From contig NZ_LMUS01000003.1 in assembly GCF_009765835.1 (NCBI RefSeq), forward strand, positions 1 to 64,000: a stretch of 64,000 nt of DNA. The letters run 5' to 3'. Under the pieces are notes generated by a model. It did not search any database and was not told where the DNA came from. It saw only the letters and a list, made by a program, of their open reading frames with translations. Made by a program: the position numbers and the translations under genes. Of this stretch, positions 7,656-15,103 are shown piece by piece (the first letter of the stretch is position 1; each line of letters begins with the position of its first letter). The DNA comes from Granulicella sp. L56. GTDB lineage: Bacteria; Acidobacteriota; Terriglobia; Terriglobales; Acidobacteriaceae.

Positions 7656-7716
7656 ATTGAACTGACTGCTGCAGTCCGTGGTCGTATTTACGCCAACGCG
7701 CTACCATCAAACCACC

Positions 7717-10569
7717 ATGCCTGACGCAAAAAATACCGCCGAAAAACCGCCCATCTATCTCCTCGACAGCATGGCCTTCATCTTCCGCGCCTACCACGCC
7801 ATGCAGCGCCAGCGGCCCATGTCCACGCGCACCGGCATCCCCACCGCAGCGACCTATGTCTTCGTCAACATGATCAACAAGCTGCGCAAGGACTTCCAGC
7901 CCCACTACCTCGCCGCCGTCTACGACCTCTCCGGTCCCGTCTTCCGCGATGAGCGCGCCAAGGAGATGAAGGGCGTCAAAAAGTTCAACATCAAAACCCA
8001 GCAGTTCGAGGTCATCGACTACGCAGGCTACAAGGCCAATCGCGCCGAGATGCCGCAAGACCTCGCCCAGCAGCTTCCCTTCATCCGCCGCGCCCTCGAA
8101 GCCTTCCGCATCCCCATCCTCAGCTACGAGGGCTTCGAGGCCGACGACGTCATCGGCACGCTCTCCTGCAAGCTCTCCGAGCTCGGCCACAAGGTCTTCG
8201 TCGTCTCCTCCGACAAAGACATGATGCAGCTCGTCAACGACGGCGTCTCCATCCTCAACCCGACCAAGGACAACCTGATCCTCGATCCTGCGGGAGTCGA
8301 AAATATCCTCGGCGTCCCTCCAGCCCGCGTAATCGACGTAATGGCACTGCGCGGCGATGCCATCGATAACATCCCCGGCGCACCCGGTATCGGCGACAAA
8401 GGCTCCGTCGAACTCATCCAACAATTCGGCACCGTCGAAGCCGCGCTCGACCGCGCCGAAGAGGTCAAAAAGAAAACGTATCGCGAATCGTTACAAAATA
8501 ATCGCGACAATATTTTGCTCTCCAAAGAGCTCGTCACCATCCACACCGGCGTCCCCATCGAATTCAGCATCGAGGACATGCTCACCCAGCCCATCGACAA
8601 CGCCGCCAGCCGCGAGCTCTTCTCCGAACTCGAATTCACCACGCTGCTCAAAGAGCTGGCCCCCGCCGTCGACAACGCACCCATCACGTACATCACCAAG
8701 CCCACGCAAGAGCAGATCGCCGCCCTCCTCACCGAAGCCCGCACCATCGACAAGACCACCGGCAAACCCCACGGTCTCGCCATCGCCATCTTCGAAGACG
8801 CCCGCGCCATCGCCGAAGAAACAACCGCCGACCCCAGCGAAGAATCCGCCGAACCCGAGCCGCCGCCCGCCGAAAACCTCTCCCTCTTCGGCGCACCCGA
8901 ACCAGCCGCAAATCCGGGTGCCCCAGGTCTCGATTCTGAGACCTGGGTTTCCGCCACCGGCGAATCCACAGACCCCGCCTGCAAGCTAGGCCTCGCCGTC
9001 GACTCGCACACCTCCATCGAAGTCTCCCTCGACGCTCCCGGCATCAAGGAAGCACTCCTCGACGCCACGCTCCCCAAAGACGTCCACGACCTCAAAGCTG
9101 TCCACCGCGCGCTCGAACCTCACGGCATCACGCTCGCCGGAGTCCGCAACGATGTCATGCTCCTCAGCTACCTCGTCAATCCAACCCACGGATCGCATAC
9201 TCTAGCAGACGTCACCGCACGCTTCACTAACCGCGCCCTCGCACAAGTCACCAAGGGCATCGTCTCCAAAGACCTGCTACCCGAAGCCGCAAACGCAGTC
9301 CAGCGCCTCGCTCCGATTCTCCGCGCAGAGATTGAAACCTCTAAAGTTACAAATGTCTACGACACCATCGATCTCCCACTCGTAGCCGTCCTTCTGCGCA
9401 TGGAGCAGGCCGGAGTCCGCATCGACCCCACCGTCCTCAACGACATGTCGAACCGCCTCGCCATCGAAATCGATAATCTGGCTGAACGAATTTATACCGA
9501 GTCCGGCCATCGCTTCAACATCAACTCCCCCAAGCAGCTAGGCGACGTTCTCTTCAACAAGATGCTTCTCCCCAAGCCGATGAAGTACGGCAAGGGCAAG
9601 GTAGTCTCCACCGCACAGGATGTCCTCGAAGAGCTGGCCGAACACCACACCACACCAGCGCTCGTCCTCGAATACCGCCAGCTAGCCAAGCTGAAAAATA
9701 CCTACCTCGACCAACTCCCCAACCTCGCCGACCGCGAAGGCCGCATTCACACCACCTTCAATCAAGTCGGCACCGCAACCGGACGCCTCTCATCCACCAA
9801 CCCAAACCTGCAAAACATTCCCGTCCGCACCGCGGTAGGTCGCGAGATCCGCGCCGCCTTCATCGCGGCTCCCGGCAACGTCCTCATGTCGGCGGACTAC
9901 TCGCAGATCGAACTCCGCCTCATGGCCCACTTCTCGCAGGACCCGCTTCTGCTCGACGCCTACCGCACCGGCAAGGACATCCACACCCTCACCGCAGCCG
10001 AGGTCTTCGGTGTCGACGCCGCGACCATGGATAAAGAGACACGCAACCGCGCCAAAGCGGTCAACTTCGGCATCGTCTACGGCATCAGCCCCTTCGGGCT
10101 CAGCGCCCAGCTCGGCATCGACCAGAAGACCGCGAAGCAGTACATCGAAACCTACTTCGAGCGCTACGCCGGTGTCCGCCGCTTCATCGACGAGACCCTC
10201 GAGACCGTCCGCCGCGATCAGGCTGTCCGCACCCACTTCGGACGCGTCCGCCCCATCCCCGACATCCAGTCCCGCAATCCCAACATGCGCGGCTTCGCCG
10301 AGCGCACCGCAGTCAACACACCGCTGCAAGGCACCGCAGCCGACCTCATCAAGCTAGCCATGCTCCGCATCGATCAAATCATCCGCGACCGCAAGCTCAA
10401 ATCGCAGATGACCCTCCAGGTCCACGACGAACTTCTCTTCGACGTAGTCCCCGAAGAGGCCGACGAACTACAAAAGCTGGTCAAGCAGGAGATGGAACAA
10501 GTAGCCGAATTCACCGTCCCCATCATCGCCGAGGTAGGCATCGGCCAGAACTGGCGCGACATCAAATAA
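7717..10569 (+). CDS. polA: DNA polymerase I
   Basis: Repair and Okazaki-fragment-processing DNA polymerase of 950 residues. The 5'-3' exonuclease domain (about 10-300) has LLDSMAFIFRAYHAM, YEGFEADDVIGTL and GVPPARVIDVMALRGDAIDNIPG. A degenerate 3'-5' exonuclease-like region (about 340-560) lacks the DxE pair and the other proofreading aspartates. The polymerase domain has TGRLSSTNPNLQNIP, motif A MSADYSQIELR (about 725-735), the O-helix RNRAKAVNFGIVYG (about 777-790) and motif C LQVHDELLFDV. A linker near residues 399-411 (NPGAPGLDSETW) is encoded by a dispersed palindromic repeat lying in frame. The ATG at 7717 is preferred to the GTG at 7678 because the family sequence starts just after it. 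Confidence 0.95.
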   Translation: MPDAKNTAEKPPIYLLDSMAFIFRAYHAMQRQRPMSTRTGIPTAATYVFVNMINKLRKDFQPHYLAAVYDLSGPVFRDERAKEMKGVKKFNIKTQQFEVIDYAGYKANRAEMPQDLAQQLPFIRRALEAFRIPILSYEGFEADDVIGTLSCKLSELGHKVFVVSSDKDMMQLVNDGVSILNPTKDNLILDPAGVENILGVPPARVIDVMALRGDAIDNIPGAPGIGDKGSVELIQQFGTVEAALDRAEEVKKKTYRESLQNNRDNILLSKELVTIHTGVPIEFSIEDMLTQPIDNAASRELFSELEFTTLLKELAPAVDNAPITYITKPTQEQIAALLTEARTIDKTTGKPHGLAIAIFEDARAIAEETTADPSEESAEPEPPPAENLSLFGAPEPAANPGAPGLDSETWVSATGESTDPACKLGLAVDSHTSIEVSLDAPGIKEALLDATLPKDVHDLKAVHRALEPHGITLAGVRNDVMLLSYLVNPTHGSHTLADVTARFTNRALAQVTKGIVSKDLLPEAANAVQRLAPILRAEIETSKVTNVYDTIDLPLVAVLLRMEQAGVRIDPTVLNDMSNRLAIEIDNLAERIYTESGHRFNINSPKQLGDVLFNKMLLPKPMKYGKGKVVSTAQDVLEELAEHHTTPALVLEYRQLAKLKNTYLDQLPNLADREGRIHTTFNQVGTATGRLSSTNPNLQNIPVRTAVGREIRAAFIAAPGNVLMSADYSQIELRLMAHFSQDPLLLDAYRTGKDIHTLTAAEVFGVDAATMDKETRNRAKAVNFGIVYGISPFGLSAQLGIDQKTAKQYIETYFERYAGVRRFIDETLETVRRDQAVRTHFGRVRPIPDIQSRNPNMRGFAERTAVNTPLQGTAADLIKLAMLRIDQIIRDRKLKSQMTLQVHDELLFDVVPEEADELQKLVKQEMEQVAEFTVPIIAEVGIGQNWRDIK
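8916..8947 (+). repeat. CGGGTGCCCC-headed palindromic repeat, copy 2 (inside polA)
   Basis: The head CGGGTGCCC is followed by a perfect 10-bp stem CCCAGGTCTC (8922-8931) / GAGACCTGGG (8938-8947) with loop GATTCT, identical to the loop of copy 1. It lies in frame within polA, in the linker between the exonuclease regions, and adds no stop codon. Stem bases differ from copy 1 but pairing is kept, so the structure is conserved more than the sequence. Confidence 0.85.
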
Positions 10570-10667: not shown

Positions 10668-11399
10668 GTGGGCAACTGGAACAACTTCTCGAATACGCTG
10701 AACGGATACGGTTACTCCGTCCAGATGCCCCTTGGTTTTATGTCCATGCCGCCTGATCCTATGAGCGGAGGAATCTTCGCATGGCCACCCGGCTCGACAC
10801 CGCCGCCCAATAGTCCTGCGCTTATATGGATTCTTCCGGTGATGCCGCCCTACCTGCCCGGCCTGGTGCAGCACTATTACAACTTCGACAACCCTATGGT
10901 CGCCGCCTACAACGCCCAGAGCCTCGGTCTGCTGAGCGTATTGCGCATCACACCGTTGCGCCAGACCAGCCTGAACGGCGTTACGACCCTGGTGCGCGAG
11001 TTCGATGCTCTCTCCATGGATGGAAATTCCATACGCATGAGCGCCATGCTGCTGCAAGGCCCCTTCTCTGCTGTACAGTGCGTCGTCGGCATCAGCCTCT
11101 GTCGCTGGGTAGAATTCGCCGGTTCGACGCTTCAGTTCATAGCCAATCTTCAGTTGAATGGGACCTCGGCCGCTCCCGGCGAAGTCCGCACCCTGATCGA
11201 CAAGAACAATCTGAACCATGTAGAAATGCAACTGGTCAACGCCGACAGTTCCGTAGTGACTCCCATCATGACCCTGCCTACCACCGTCGGCCAGTCACAG
11301 ATATTCGAGATACACGTTGCGGCTGGGGGTTCCCTCTCTTTCGGAGACGTAAAAGGGACCAATGTTCAGATCGGGGACCACAACATCGTCCACACCTAA
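10668..11399 (+). CDS. Unknown protein with C-terminal GTNVQIGDHN (RHIM-like) motif
   Basis: A 243-residue protein without signal peptide. The amino third is rich in proline, methionine and aromatic residues (MPLGFMSMPPDPMSGG, PALIWILPVMPPYLPG). The middle (about 85-165) alternates strands (TLVREFDALSMDGNSIRMSA, GPFSAVQCVVGISLCRW) in a way that recalls PsbP/DcrB-like domains, a weak resemblance only. The last 18 residues, GDVKGTNVQIGDHN plus a short tail, match the amino end of the next gene. The VQIG core is the tetrad of RHIM amyloid motifs. The start is not covered by a strong ribosome site. The pair layout, a motif at the C-terminus of one gene and the N-terminus of its neighbour, is what amyloid-signalling partners show (inference). 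No known function. Confidence 0.65.
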   Translation: MGNWNNFSNTLNGYGYSVQMPLGFMSMPPDPMSGGIFAWPPGSTPPPNSPALIWILPVMPPYLPGLVQHYYNFDNPMVAAYNAQSLGLLSVLRITPLRQTSLNGVTTLVREFDALSMDGNSIRMSAMLLQGPFSAVQCVVGISLCRWVEFAGSTLQFIANLQLNGTSAAPGEVRTLIDKNNLNHVEMQLVNADSSVVTPIMTLPTTVGQSQIFEIHVAAGGSLSFGDVKGTNVQIGDHNIVHT

Positions 11400-11440
11400 C
11401 AAGGGCCGCGTACACGAGAACGAAGCGAGGAGATTTTTAT

Positions 11441-11830
11441 ATGTCGAATATCCAAATGGGTACCGTATCCGGAACCAACGTTCAGGTTGGCGACAACAAC
11501 ACCCAGAACGTCACCATGAATCAAGTTGACCGCGACCAGATTCTCAGCCTACTGGACTCGCTCCATCAGCAGATTCAACAAGCTCCTATTCCTGAAGAGG
11601 CCAAGCAGGCGATCACACAGCAGGTGCTGCCCAGCATGCAGGAGGCTGCCAAACAGCCCGATCCAAAACCCGGACTCGCCAAGGGCCTGGAGGATCTCAA
11701 TAAAAATCTAACGAACGTCAACACCGCTGCCAGTTCCGTGTCTGAAATCGTAGGAACAGTATCTAAAATCGCAGGCATCATCGGTATCGGCGTCAAAGTA
11801 GTGGCTCCCTTTCTAGCTGCATTTTTGTAG
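11441..11830 (+). CDS. Small protein with N-terminal GTNVQVGDNN (RHIM-like) motif and hydrophobic C-terminus
   Basis: A 129-residue protein with AGGAG 8 nt before its ATG. Residues 6-20 (MGTVSGTNVQVGDNN) repeat the motif ending the upstream protein, with a VQVG tetrad. Then come an amphipathic helical part (QILSLLDSLHQQI, PEEAKQAITQQVLPSMQEA), a KPGLAKGLEDLNKNL segment and a hydrophobic end (VSKIAGIIGIGVKVVAPFLAAFL) that could insert in or lie on a membrane. The gap to the upstream gene is 41 nt, so they are probably co-transcribed. I infer a membrane-active helical partner whose activity could be triggered by motif-templated assembly. An alternative is a simple structural or beta-helical capping repeat. 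Confidence 0.65.
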   Translation: MSNIQMGTVSGTNVQVGDNNTQNVTMNQVDRDQILSLLDSLHQQIQQAPIPEEAKQAITQQVLPSMQEAAKQPDPKPGLAKGLEDLNKNLTNVNTAASSVSEIVGTVSKIAGIIGIGVKVVAPFLAAFL

Positions 11831-13339: not shown

Positions 13340-15103
13340 TTAATGTCTGGCTGCGGCTGGTGGGGGAGAAGTTGCAGGCGCCGTTGTTGGTGCGGTGGCT
13401 GGTGCAGACGGAGGGAATTGTTTCACGAAGTATGCATAGATGTTCGGACGTATCGTCTGCAGCAGCCCGGGGTCGTTCGTAAACAGCATGAACGACTCGG
13501 CAAATAGCTCCTTCCAGTTCGTGTTGCCATAATCTGTTTCAGAGCCCTTCAATGTCATCTTCACACCCAGGCTGTTCACTCGCGGAGTCCTCGATTGGTC
13601 CGCAGTGATGCCATCTTTCTTGCCGGCCTTCCGAAACTCCACAGTGTAGTCATCCGGGTCCATGTCCCCTCCAGACAGGGCGTGGGCCTGGTTCAGTGCT
13701 CTCTGGGCCGCGGCATCCTTTGCGCTCGCCTCAAATAGCGCGTTAGCTTCCATGACGGGGCGAAAATCGTATCCGTGCCCAAGCTCATGGTTCAAGGTAT
13801 CCCTGACCTGACCCGGAGTCTGGTCGGTGAACGCCGTATCGAACACGGTCATTGTGTTGCTATCCGGATCGAAGACCGCTGCCTCGCCCGAGGCAGTCTT
13901 CTTGTCCGCTGTTTCGTCCTTCTTCGGGGTAGTCTTCTTCTCTTTGTCTTTATCTTTTACCTCAGGAGCATTAGCCCGGTTGAACTTCATGCCCTCATTC
14001 AATGCTGATGCCGGAAGCAGGGTTAGAGCCTGGAACAGAAGCTGCTTGTCGCTGGCTGACCATCCCGATCCGAACTTGCACTTCCTCGCCTTAAAGTTTG
14101 CCTCGCCCGGTGCGGTCTCTAGAGCCTGAATCGGCCCCAACCCTTCAATCAGGAACACTTTCTGTTTCCCATGCTGCAGGTAGGTCATCCGCACCCAACG
14201 TTTCATCGGCGCAACCGGAAAACTCGCCGTCTGGTTCAGCGGGAAATGCTTCGGAGCCTCTCCCAGCAGATAGTTCGAGAGCGAATCCAGTTGTTTGCGG
14301 TACTTCTGTTCGATGGTGTCGGCGAAGACGGTCTGTGTATCCGTTTCGCCCGTGTATCGTGCCGCATCAGGATCGAACGCGTCCGTAACCCTGTCCGCGA
14401 TGTTGGAAGGCAGTTCCTGGAATAGGGTGACCTTCTGACGTTCCGCCTCCGGATAGTCGGCTAATGAGGTCGGCAACGGGGCCTCCTGTTTAGGCGGCGG
14501 TGGCTGTTTGTCCTTTGGCGCCTGCTTGGGCTGGCGCTGCAAAATCAGGCTGGGTGCCGACCGATGGGCTTCATATTCGAGCGGACTATGTATGTCCCCC
14601 ACTGCCAATACTCGCGCTGGAAGCGCCGAACGTTGTTGCACAACGTGCATCATCTCGTGATCCAGCAAATCTTTTCCAGACGGTCTACGCGGCTCAAATT
14701 CTCCGGAGTCGAAGACAACATGATGGCCAACCGTGTAGGCGGCGGCACCGACGGCTCGGGCGGATTGCGCGGCTTGCGGATCAGTGTGAATCCTCACACG
14801 AGAAAAATCGAAGTCCTTCCGTGCTCTCAAGTCGGCCCCCACGTCAGCGTCGAGAGGCTGGCCCGAACTCTGCAAAACCTCGTGAACAATTGGCGGAGCT
14901 GCATTCCTTGAGGAAGCAGGTTGCGCTGTGGCTTTTCGTTCGGGCGGCCATAAGGGGATATCTGCAAACCGAGGCGCAGGGTGGCTCAGTACATGGGTGT
15001 CGGTAGATTGCGCTGGAGGATGGCGAAACACATCCGTGCTCGTCGGCTTGGGCGAGAGAGGCTTCAGGGAAGGGCGGAGCATGGACGCGAAGAGGGAAGG
15101 CAT
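13340..15103 (-). CDS. eCIS core-domain (DUF4157) protein with second HELGH metallopeptidase motif
   Basis: A 587-residue protein with no signal peptide. Residues 73-158 form the DUF4157/eCIS core domain: VLQSSGQPLD, RVRIHTDPQAAQSARAVGAAAYTVGHHVVF and the HEMMHVVQQ zinc-like motif (H149, E150, H153). After a proline/lysine-rich linker (190-212) and an unassigned middle comes a lysine-rich spacer (380-402). A second motif NHELGHGYD follows (H439, E440, H443), with ELFAESF near 532-537 as a possible third ligand. The tail is a proline/alanine repeat. DUF4157 proteins are linked to extracellular contractile injection systems as cargo or toxins (family knowledge), so this could be a metallopeptidase effector (inference). 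AGGAGG lies 6 nt before the ATG. No injection-system structural genes are in the window. Confidence 0.8.
   Translation of the reverse strand: MPSLFASMLRPSLKPLSPKPTSTDVFRHPPAQSTDTHVLSHPAPRFADIPLWPPERKATAQPASSRNAAPPIVHEVLQSSGQPLDADVGADLRARKDFDFSRVRIHTDPQAAQSARAVGAAAYTVGHHVVFDSGEFEPRRPSGKDLLDHEMMHVVQQRSALPARVLAVGDIHSPLEYEAHRSAPSLILQRQPKQAPKDKQPPPPKQEAPLPTSLADYPEAERQKVTLFQELPSNIADRVTDAFDPDAARYTGETDTQTVFADTIEQKYRKQLDSLSNYLLGEAPKHFPLNQTASFPVAPMKRWVRMTYLQHGKQKVFLIEGLGPIQALETAPGEANFKARKCKFGSGWSASDKQLLFQALTLLPASALNEGMKFNRANAPEVKDKDKEKKTTPKKDETADKKTASGEAAVFDPDSNTMTVFDTAFTDQTPGQVRDTLNHELGHGYDFRPVMEANALFEASAKDAAAQRALNQAHALSGGDMDPDDYTVEFRKAGKKDGITADQSRTPRVNSLGVKMTLKGSETDYGNTNWKELFAESFMLFTNDPGLLQTIRPNIYAYFVKQFPPSAPATAPTTAPATSPPPAAARH

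Follow-up and report, generated by a model that had tools for sequence, protein, structure and literature searches.

Introduction

Two classes of described bacterial systems come close to the subject of the present work, a pair of adjacent genes in Granulicella sp. L56, called gene 1 and gene 2 below. The pair lies within a stretch of 64,000 nt (contig NZ_LMUS01000003.1 of assembly GCF_009765835.1, positions 1–64,000), which as a whole is referred to as the window. The first class is AbiT, an abortive infection system of two adjacent genes, one of which encodes a small helical protein. The second comprises the BASS3/BELL signalosomes of NOD-like receptors (NLRs), where neighbouring genes have a short beta motif in common and the helical effector has a hydrophobic helix. 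For the BASS3 peptide of Frankia, amyloid-type aggregation has been measured (PMC8086366), and a review from 2021 asks whether fungal and bacterial signalling amyloids exist in NLR-independent pathways (PMC7889193). Other papers drawn on here are PMC9815663, PMC7885112, PMC12261475, PMC3710099, PMC10984412 and PMC9252829.

The window pair resembles the signalosomes in that its two neighbouring genes have a short beta motif in common and its helical protein, the likely effector, has a hydrophobic helix. However, the motif is C-terminal in BELL and N-terminal in the NLR, while in the window it is the helical protein that has it N-terminally and the partner that has it C-terminally. The initial annotation of the pair, which had proposed the layout of an amyloid-signalling pair, was right about the motifs at neighbouring termini, but the polarity is the reverse of that of the published BELL/NLR pairs. 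Furthermore, gene 1 encodes a protein of predicted PsbP type with a C-terminal motif, and there is no NLR partner. The comparison with the BELL-NLR systems (Dyrka et al. 2020, as described in later papers) is one of layout. With AbiT, the window pair shares the two adjacent genes and the small helical protein, but the predicted fold of gene 1 takes the place of the AbiTii domain, and the similarity between gene 2 and AbiTi, assessed with the PADLOC model of AbiTi, is weak. Since it has neither an AbiTii domain nor an NLR and shows the opposite polarity, we place the pair in neither class and regard it as a new variant that stands between the AbiT-type and the NLR-amyloid-type systems. The pair is not described in the literature searched, which did not include the 2020 paper in J Mol Biol that founded the BASS classes.

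Results and Discussion

Gene 1 (10668–11399, + strand; 243 aa, GTG start) and gene 2 (11441–11830, +; 129 aa) lie on the same strand with a spacing of 41 bases. A ribosome-binding-site-like AGGAG (11428–11432, +) precedes gene 2, the start of which is internal to a longer mechanical open reading frame (ORF) at 10826–11830. Gene 1 was found in 8 of 200 genomes of the order, and in all eight gene 2 adjoins it and the motif described below is retained, which supports the earlier suggestion that the two genes belong together. A ninth match to gene 2 in these genomes was discarded as a flagellin-like false match. At the family level the pair was again recovered in 8 of 398 genomes, and at the phylum level either profile has matches in 4 of 396; the gene family is thus rare and patchy. 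A scan of GTDB contigs gave five loci, four of them on contigs equal in length to those of four genomes already in the set. The new one (L022) is on a short contig of a metagenome-assembled genome that was assigned to Phycisphaerales by binning. Both genes are joined there in a single frame of 412 residues, and a ribosome-binding-site-like sequence nevertheless remains before the start of gene 2. The nine loci represent six genomic contexts, and the two genes overlap by 4 bases in three of the loci. Across these contexts the pair has no further gene family as a recurrent neighbour; the one exception is a weak match (27% identity) between ORFs lying far out in the flanks of two genomes (G081 and G198). 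We conclude that the pair is a real, rare and conserved two-gene module.

We now turn our attention to the motif that the two proteins have in common. The copy in gene 1, GDVKGTNVQIGDHN (residues 226–239; 11343–11384, +), ends four residues before the end of the protein, and the copy in gene 2, GTVSGTNVQVGDNN (residues 7–20; 11459–11500, +), stands at the N-terminus. This is the arrangement that had been noted initially; the identity between the copies is 10 of 14 positions, not 11 as then counted. The motif is the top local alignment of the whole of gene 1 against gene 2, with a score of 60 that is reached in 4 of 5000 double shuffles (Gumbel p 5e-4). The DNA pattern of its core has two matches in the 4.7 Mb genome, both at this pair. 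Using a profile of 15 motif segments, 16 strong matches were obtained in the 200 genomes (E 4e-5 or better), namely both copies of the eight pairs from which the profile itself was built, and beyond these nothing falls below E 0.012. The motif is not a rung of a longer beta-helix repeat protein here, an outcome that would have spoken against the original proposal.

At the DNA level, 6 of the 14 motif codons are identical between the two window copies. Compared with a congener (G008), the 8 codon changes in the gene 1 motif are all synonymous and none is non-synonymous, against 58 synonymous and 59 non-synonymous changes in the rest of the gene (Fisher p 0.007); this copy is under purifying selection. 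For the gene 2 motif the numbers are 3 synonymous and 2 non-synonymous, with 38 and 18 in its surroundings, that is, the motif is no cleaner than its neighbourhood.

The motif also varies between loci. Its Q is present in both partners or in neither at all nine: in both at the four with a VQ(I/V/F)G or LQVG core (VQFGDHN in both partners of G035, for example), and in neither at the other five (GIAVG, GIAIG, GIVLG). These sequences support the view that the motif differs between loci, in step in both partners. Both this and the codon changes bear on a split-gene scenario, in which an ancestral fusion broke and each half kept a copy of the linker, leaving a motif without present function. One fused form is indeed known, but a functionless remnant fits poorly with the absence of non-synonymous changes in the gene 1 copy, with variation in step, and with the unlike yet matching motifs of independent pairs (see below). 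The scenario is already disfavoured, and we consider it very improbable.

The amino part of gene 1 had been left unassigned, and at the level of sequence families it stays so, with no match in Pfam, PADLOC, NCBIfam or the PDB sequences, and no AbiTii domain (PF18864). However, a PsbP/MOG1/DcrB-type fold is predicted for residues 7–167 (10686–11168, +), with a structural match over most of the domain (AlphaFold2, mean predicted local distance difference test (pLDDT) 77; Foldseek; VIA-align). In the same model, residues 216–243, including the motif, form a low-confidence tail with pLDDT below 50. To our knowledge, a C-terminal motif of this kind has not been added to members of the PsbP/MOG1/DcrB/EagR families. 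An in-frame stop codon is found four codons 5' of the GTG start, so that no signal peptide is hidden there.

A DcrB/EagR-type fold invites the idea that gene 1 acts as an antitoxin, as an immunity protein or as a chaperone and holds the hydrophobic helix of gene 2 in a harmless state, with the motif as a docking point. The fold match, however, is common to many unrelated proteins (PsbP, LpqN), and the role fits the fused form and the forms with HEAT or NACHT partners less well. A further argument comes from the analogous AbiT pair of C. catus (Coprococcus catus). There, AbiTi brought E. coli growth to a halt, and AbiTii had no antitoxic effect (PMC3985639). Overall, we judge a protective role of gene 1 to be quite unlikely.

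For gene 2, a bundle of four long helices is predicted at residues 28–126 (11522–11818, +; AlphaFold2, mean pLDDT 76). Its most hydrophobic stretch is at residues 110–128 (11768–11824, +; mean Kyte-Doolittle 2.1), which is a possible membrane part and agrees with the hydrophobic end described initially. The PADLOC phage-defence candidate PDC-M14B is matched by all eight gene 2 homologues across the motif and the helices, with E values of 0.1 or better and 2e-7 for the best of them; searched singly, G035 gene 2 gives 6e-4. The match is confined to the C-terminal part of the model, about positions 147–263 of 267, and none of the eight has a full-length match. The N-terminal half of PDC-M14B is accordingly absent from gene 2, while the C-terminal motif and helices are alike. 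The literature searched contains no mention of a role for PDC-M14.

Gene 2 also has a weak match on a plasmid (E 0.2), and from there we reached proteins in which an AbiTii domain (PF18864, 1e-41) is followed by GDVSGSQIQIGSN and then by the helical module. The similarity of gene 2 to this fused module is reached in 0 of 3000 shuffles for the whole, for the motif alone and for the helices alone (57 versus a shuffle maximum of 56), and hhalign gives an E value of 5e-6 with a probability of 86%. Judged from these alignments, gene 2 and the AbiTii-fused module are related, and gene 2 appears as a stand-alone relative of the C-terminal part of the PDC-M14B and AbiTii-fusion proteins. Motif and helices are found in the same chain in 7 of 9 AbiTii proteins scanned, and are missing from two (L091 and L094). 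The PADLOC model of AbiTi (114 positions) matches this part of three AbiTii fusions (L093, 1e-7; L083, 1e-4; L096, 1e-3). Directly it matches one of the eight gene 2 homologues, weakly (E 0.015), and the link is through the AbiTii fusions that match both models.

The module also ends pentapeptide-repeat and other proteins of Granulicella (L074, L075, L078, L081). In the pentapeptide-repeat proteins of L074 and L075 (G040 and G052), the C-terminal module matches PDC-M14B, as in cyanobacterial pentapeptide proteins. An Aeromonas plasmid (L082, 851–4243) has three tandem AbiTii-type genes with the same helical end and differing motif stretches between domain and helices, which looks as if motif specificity were diversifying.

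Matched motifs were also found in other gene pairs. At 15 loci, 17 genes that adjoin an AbiTii gene on the same strand were examined for a local match of their product to the AbiTii protein. This count leaves out five loci that have no same-strand neighbour within about 400 bases (L084, L085, L088, L097, L099), L072, which is nearly a copy of L073, both of the AbiTii paralogues that lie upstream in L082, and an additional AbiTii fragment of L086. The AbiTii pair of Synechococcus PCC 7502 combines VGAVQNGDRNIAHV with VGAVQTGRENTANV (p 5e-5). In Corynebacterium efficiens, a protein of 94 residues has NVQGDNN at its N-terminus, and AbiTii has NIQGDNN as its last residues (p 2e-4), so that the layout equals that of the window pair; a C. 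glutamicum relative has no matched motif. The match in a Nostoc AbiTii pair is weaker (p 0.002). By following the Synechococcus partner, two further cases were reached, for which the labels HEAT, pentapeptide and NACHT are annotations of the sequence records. In Calothrix, the motif stands at the end of a HEAT-repeat protein and again at the start of the product of the next gene (132 residues; p 4e-6). In Tolypothrix, a pentapeptide protein with the module has a motif of 31 residues that recurs N-terminally in a NACHT protein, the gene of which is the second annotated one from it (p 8e-8; plasmid locus L121, 756–2471 and from 3680 on); this case may already be in the lists of the founding BASS paper. 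A motif common to neighbours with unrelated domains had been named at the outset as the support to look for, and the AbiTii, HEAT and NACHT partners provide it.

The window copies can also be compared with known amyloid motifs. Against the Frankia BASS3 peptide they score 36 (VQVGDNNTQ versus VQVGDGNVQ), a value reached in 1 and 0 of 2000 shuffles. The other copies examined (G198, Corynebacterium, Synechococcus and the AbiTii fusion) have no significant likeness to BASS3, with 83 of 2000 shuffles for G198. Since of the copies examined only those of the window resemble BASS3, the class is better defined by matching within pairs than by one consensus. The suggested RHIM-like core holds in part. 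The window motif has the hydrophobic-Q-hydrophobic-G core, and VQ(I/V)GD resembles BASS3, but the distant members listed above lack the Q, and RHIM is not listed among the Pfam matches of the two window proteins at E values up to 10, where weak matches to a motif of this length are lost in the filters of HMMER. As for receptors, one weak Pfam match to NACHT, below the cut-off, was found in the strain's own genome. The earlier statement that no NLR or STAND (signal transduction ATPases with numerous domains) receptor is present holds as far as NACHT is concerned, NB-ARC and the other STAND types being outside the search.

The main rival to the amyloid reading is a stable beta-roll joint, in which the motif is a fixed rung and the two proteins form a constant hetero-oligomer by stacked rungs, as in trimeric YadA-type heads, standing in for covalent fusion without any templated signal. 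The distant members read GIAVGxxxxA, similar to YadA head rungs, and a YadA beta-roll is the sole match of the motif profile in the PDB, but at E = 2 this is not significant. Fused forms such as L022, and the AbiTii proteins in which a single motif joins domain and helices, would also fit a joint of this kind. On the other hand, the window form of the motif resembles a peptide that forms amyloid, and the matching copy in Tolypothrix is at the N-terminus of a NACHT protein, which is the site of published NLR amyloid motifs. We therefore regard the beta-roll joint as somewhat unlikely.

Mechanistic Considerations

We propose that the pair is a two-part sensor/effector module joined by a homotypic beta motif, of the AbiT or NLR-amyloid type but without an NLR, a reading whose prospects we see as evenly balanced. 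Gene 1 would be a cytoplasmic PsbP/MOG1/DcrB-fold protein, likely a sensor or regulator, with the motif in its C-terminal tail, and gene 2 the likely effector, in which the motif is N-terminal and leads into a helical bundle whose end is hydrophobic. Once gene 1 is triggered, its motif copies would gather and recruit or template those of gene 2 through cross-beta stacking. The helical parts of gene 2, thus clustered, would exert their effect at the membrane and arrest growth, in the manner of abortive infection. The proposal builds on the gene pairing, the motif match, the fold prediction for gene 1, the relation of gene 2 to PDC-M14B and the AbiTii fusions, and the matched pairs elsewhere; cross-beta stacking, sensing, membrane action and phage defence are what we infer for the module. 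The direction from gene 1 to gene 2 is supported by analogy with the C. catus pair described above, in which it was AbiTi that arrested growth.

A number of results weigh against this proposal. The majority of the AbiTii neighbours tested (14 of 17) have no shared motif (p 0.11 or more), and many AbiTii proteins combine motif and helices in one chain, which makes a partner unnecessary in these cases. When expressed alone in E. coli, neither AbiTi nor AbiTii of L. lactis was toxic (PMC3985639). The cross-pair test with seven pairs is in favour of the proposal, as only the true pairing attains its summed score (1/5040), but the segments were hand-chosen by the analyst. With whole proteins from five systems, again only the true pairing attains its score (1/120), but two of the five rows prefer a foreign partner (62 versus 61 for Corynebacterium and 79 versus 59 for Nostoc, the latter because the Nostoc AbiTii protein also carries the helical module). 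Restricted to the PsbP family (five representatives), the permutation is weaker and only suggestive, as 4 of 120 arrangements reach the true sum and one exceeds it. The gene 2 profile does not find the small Corynebacterium partner, G198 gene 2 searched singly against PDC-M14B gives E worse than 0.01, and for the distant G072 homologue the helices, taken by themselves, show no match to those of the AbiTii fusion (551 of 3000 shuffles). The PADLOC defence scan around the pair covered 5 window proteins.

One can also speculate, more tentatively, that the helical module of gene 2 is a general bacterial effector of death or growth arrest, and that matching cross-beta motifs, in place of a fusion, serve to address it. 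The sensors (AbiTii, PsbP-type, HEAT-repeat, pentapeptide and NACHT NLRs) would then be exchangeable, and a motif variant of its own in each pair would keep parallel pathways apart. If true, this would unite AbiT-type abortive infection and NLR amyloid signalosomes in one class, and it would give NLR-independent bacterial signalling amyloids, for which the window pair and the AbiTii and HEAT pairs are small and concrete candidates, with two short proteins and a motif of 14 residues. The pairs also suggest what the little-understood AbiTi and AbiTii may have in common with NLR signalosomes.

Other Features of the Window

Upstream of the pair, the DNA polymerase I gene (7678–10569, +) matches the PADLOC DRT polA-type model (6e-39); it is probably an ordinary polA, and the match a false alarm of the model. 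Downstream, between FAD oxidase and esterase genes, there is a gene (13340–15103, −) for a 587-aa protein with HEMMH and HELGH, presumably a DUF4157-type metalloprotease, which is absent at this position in two of the other genomes (G036 and G008).
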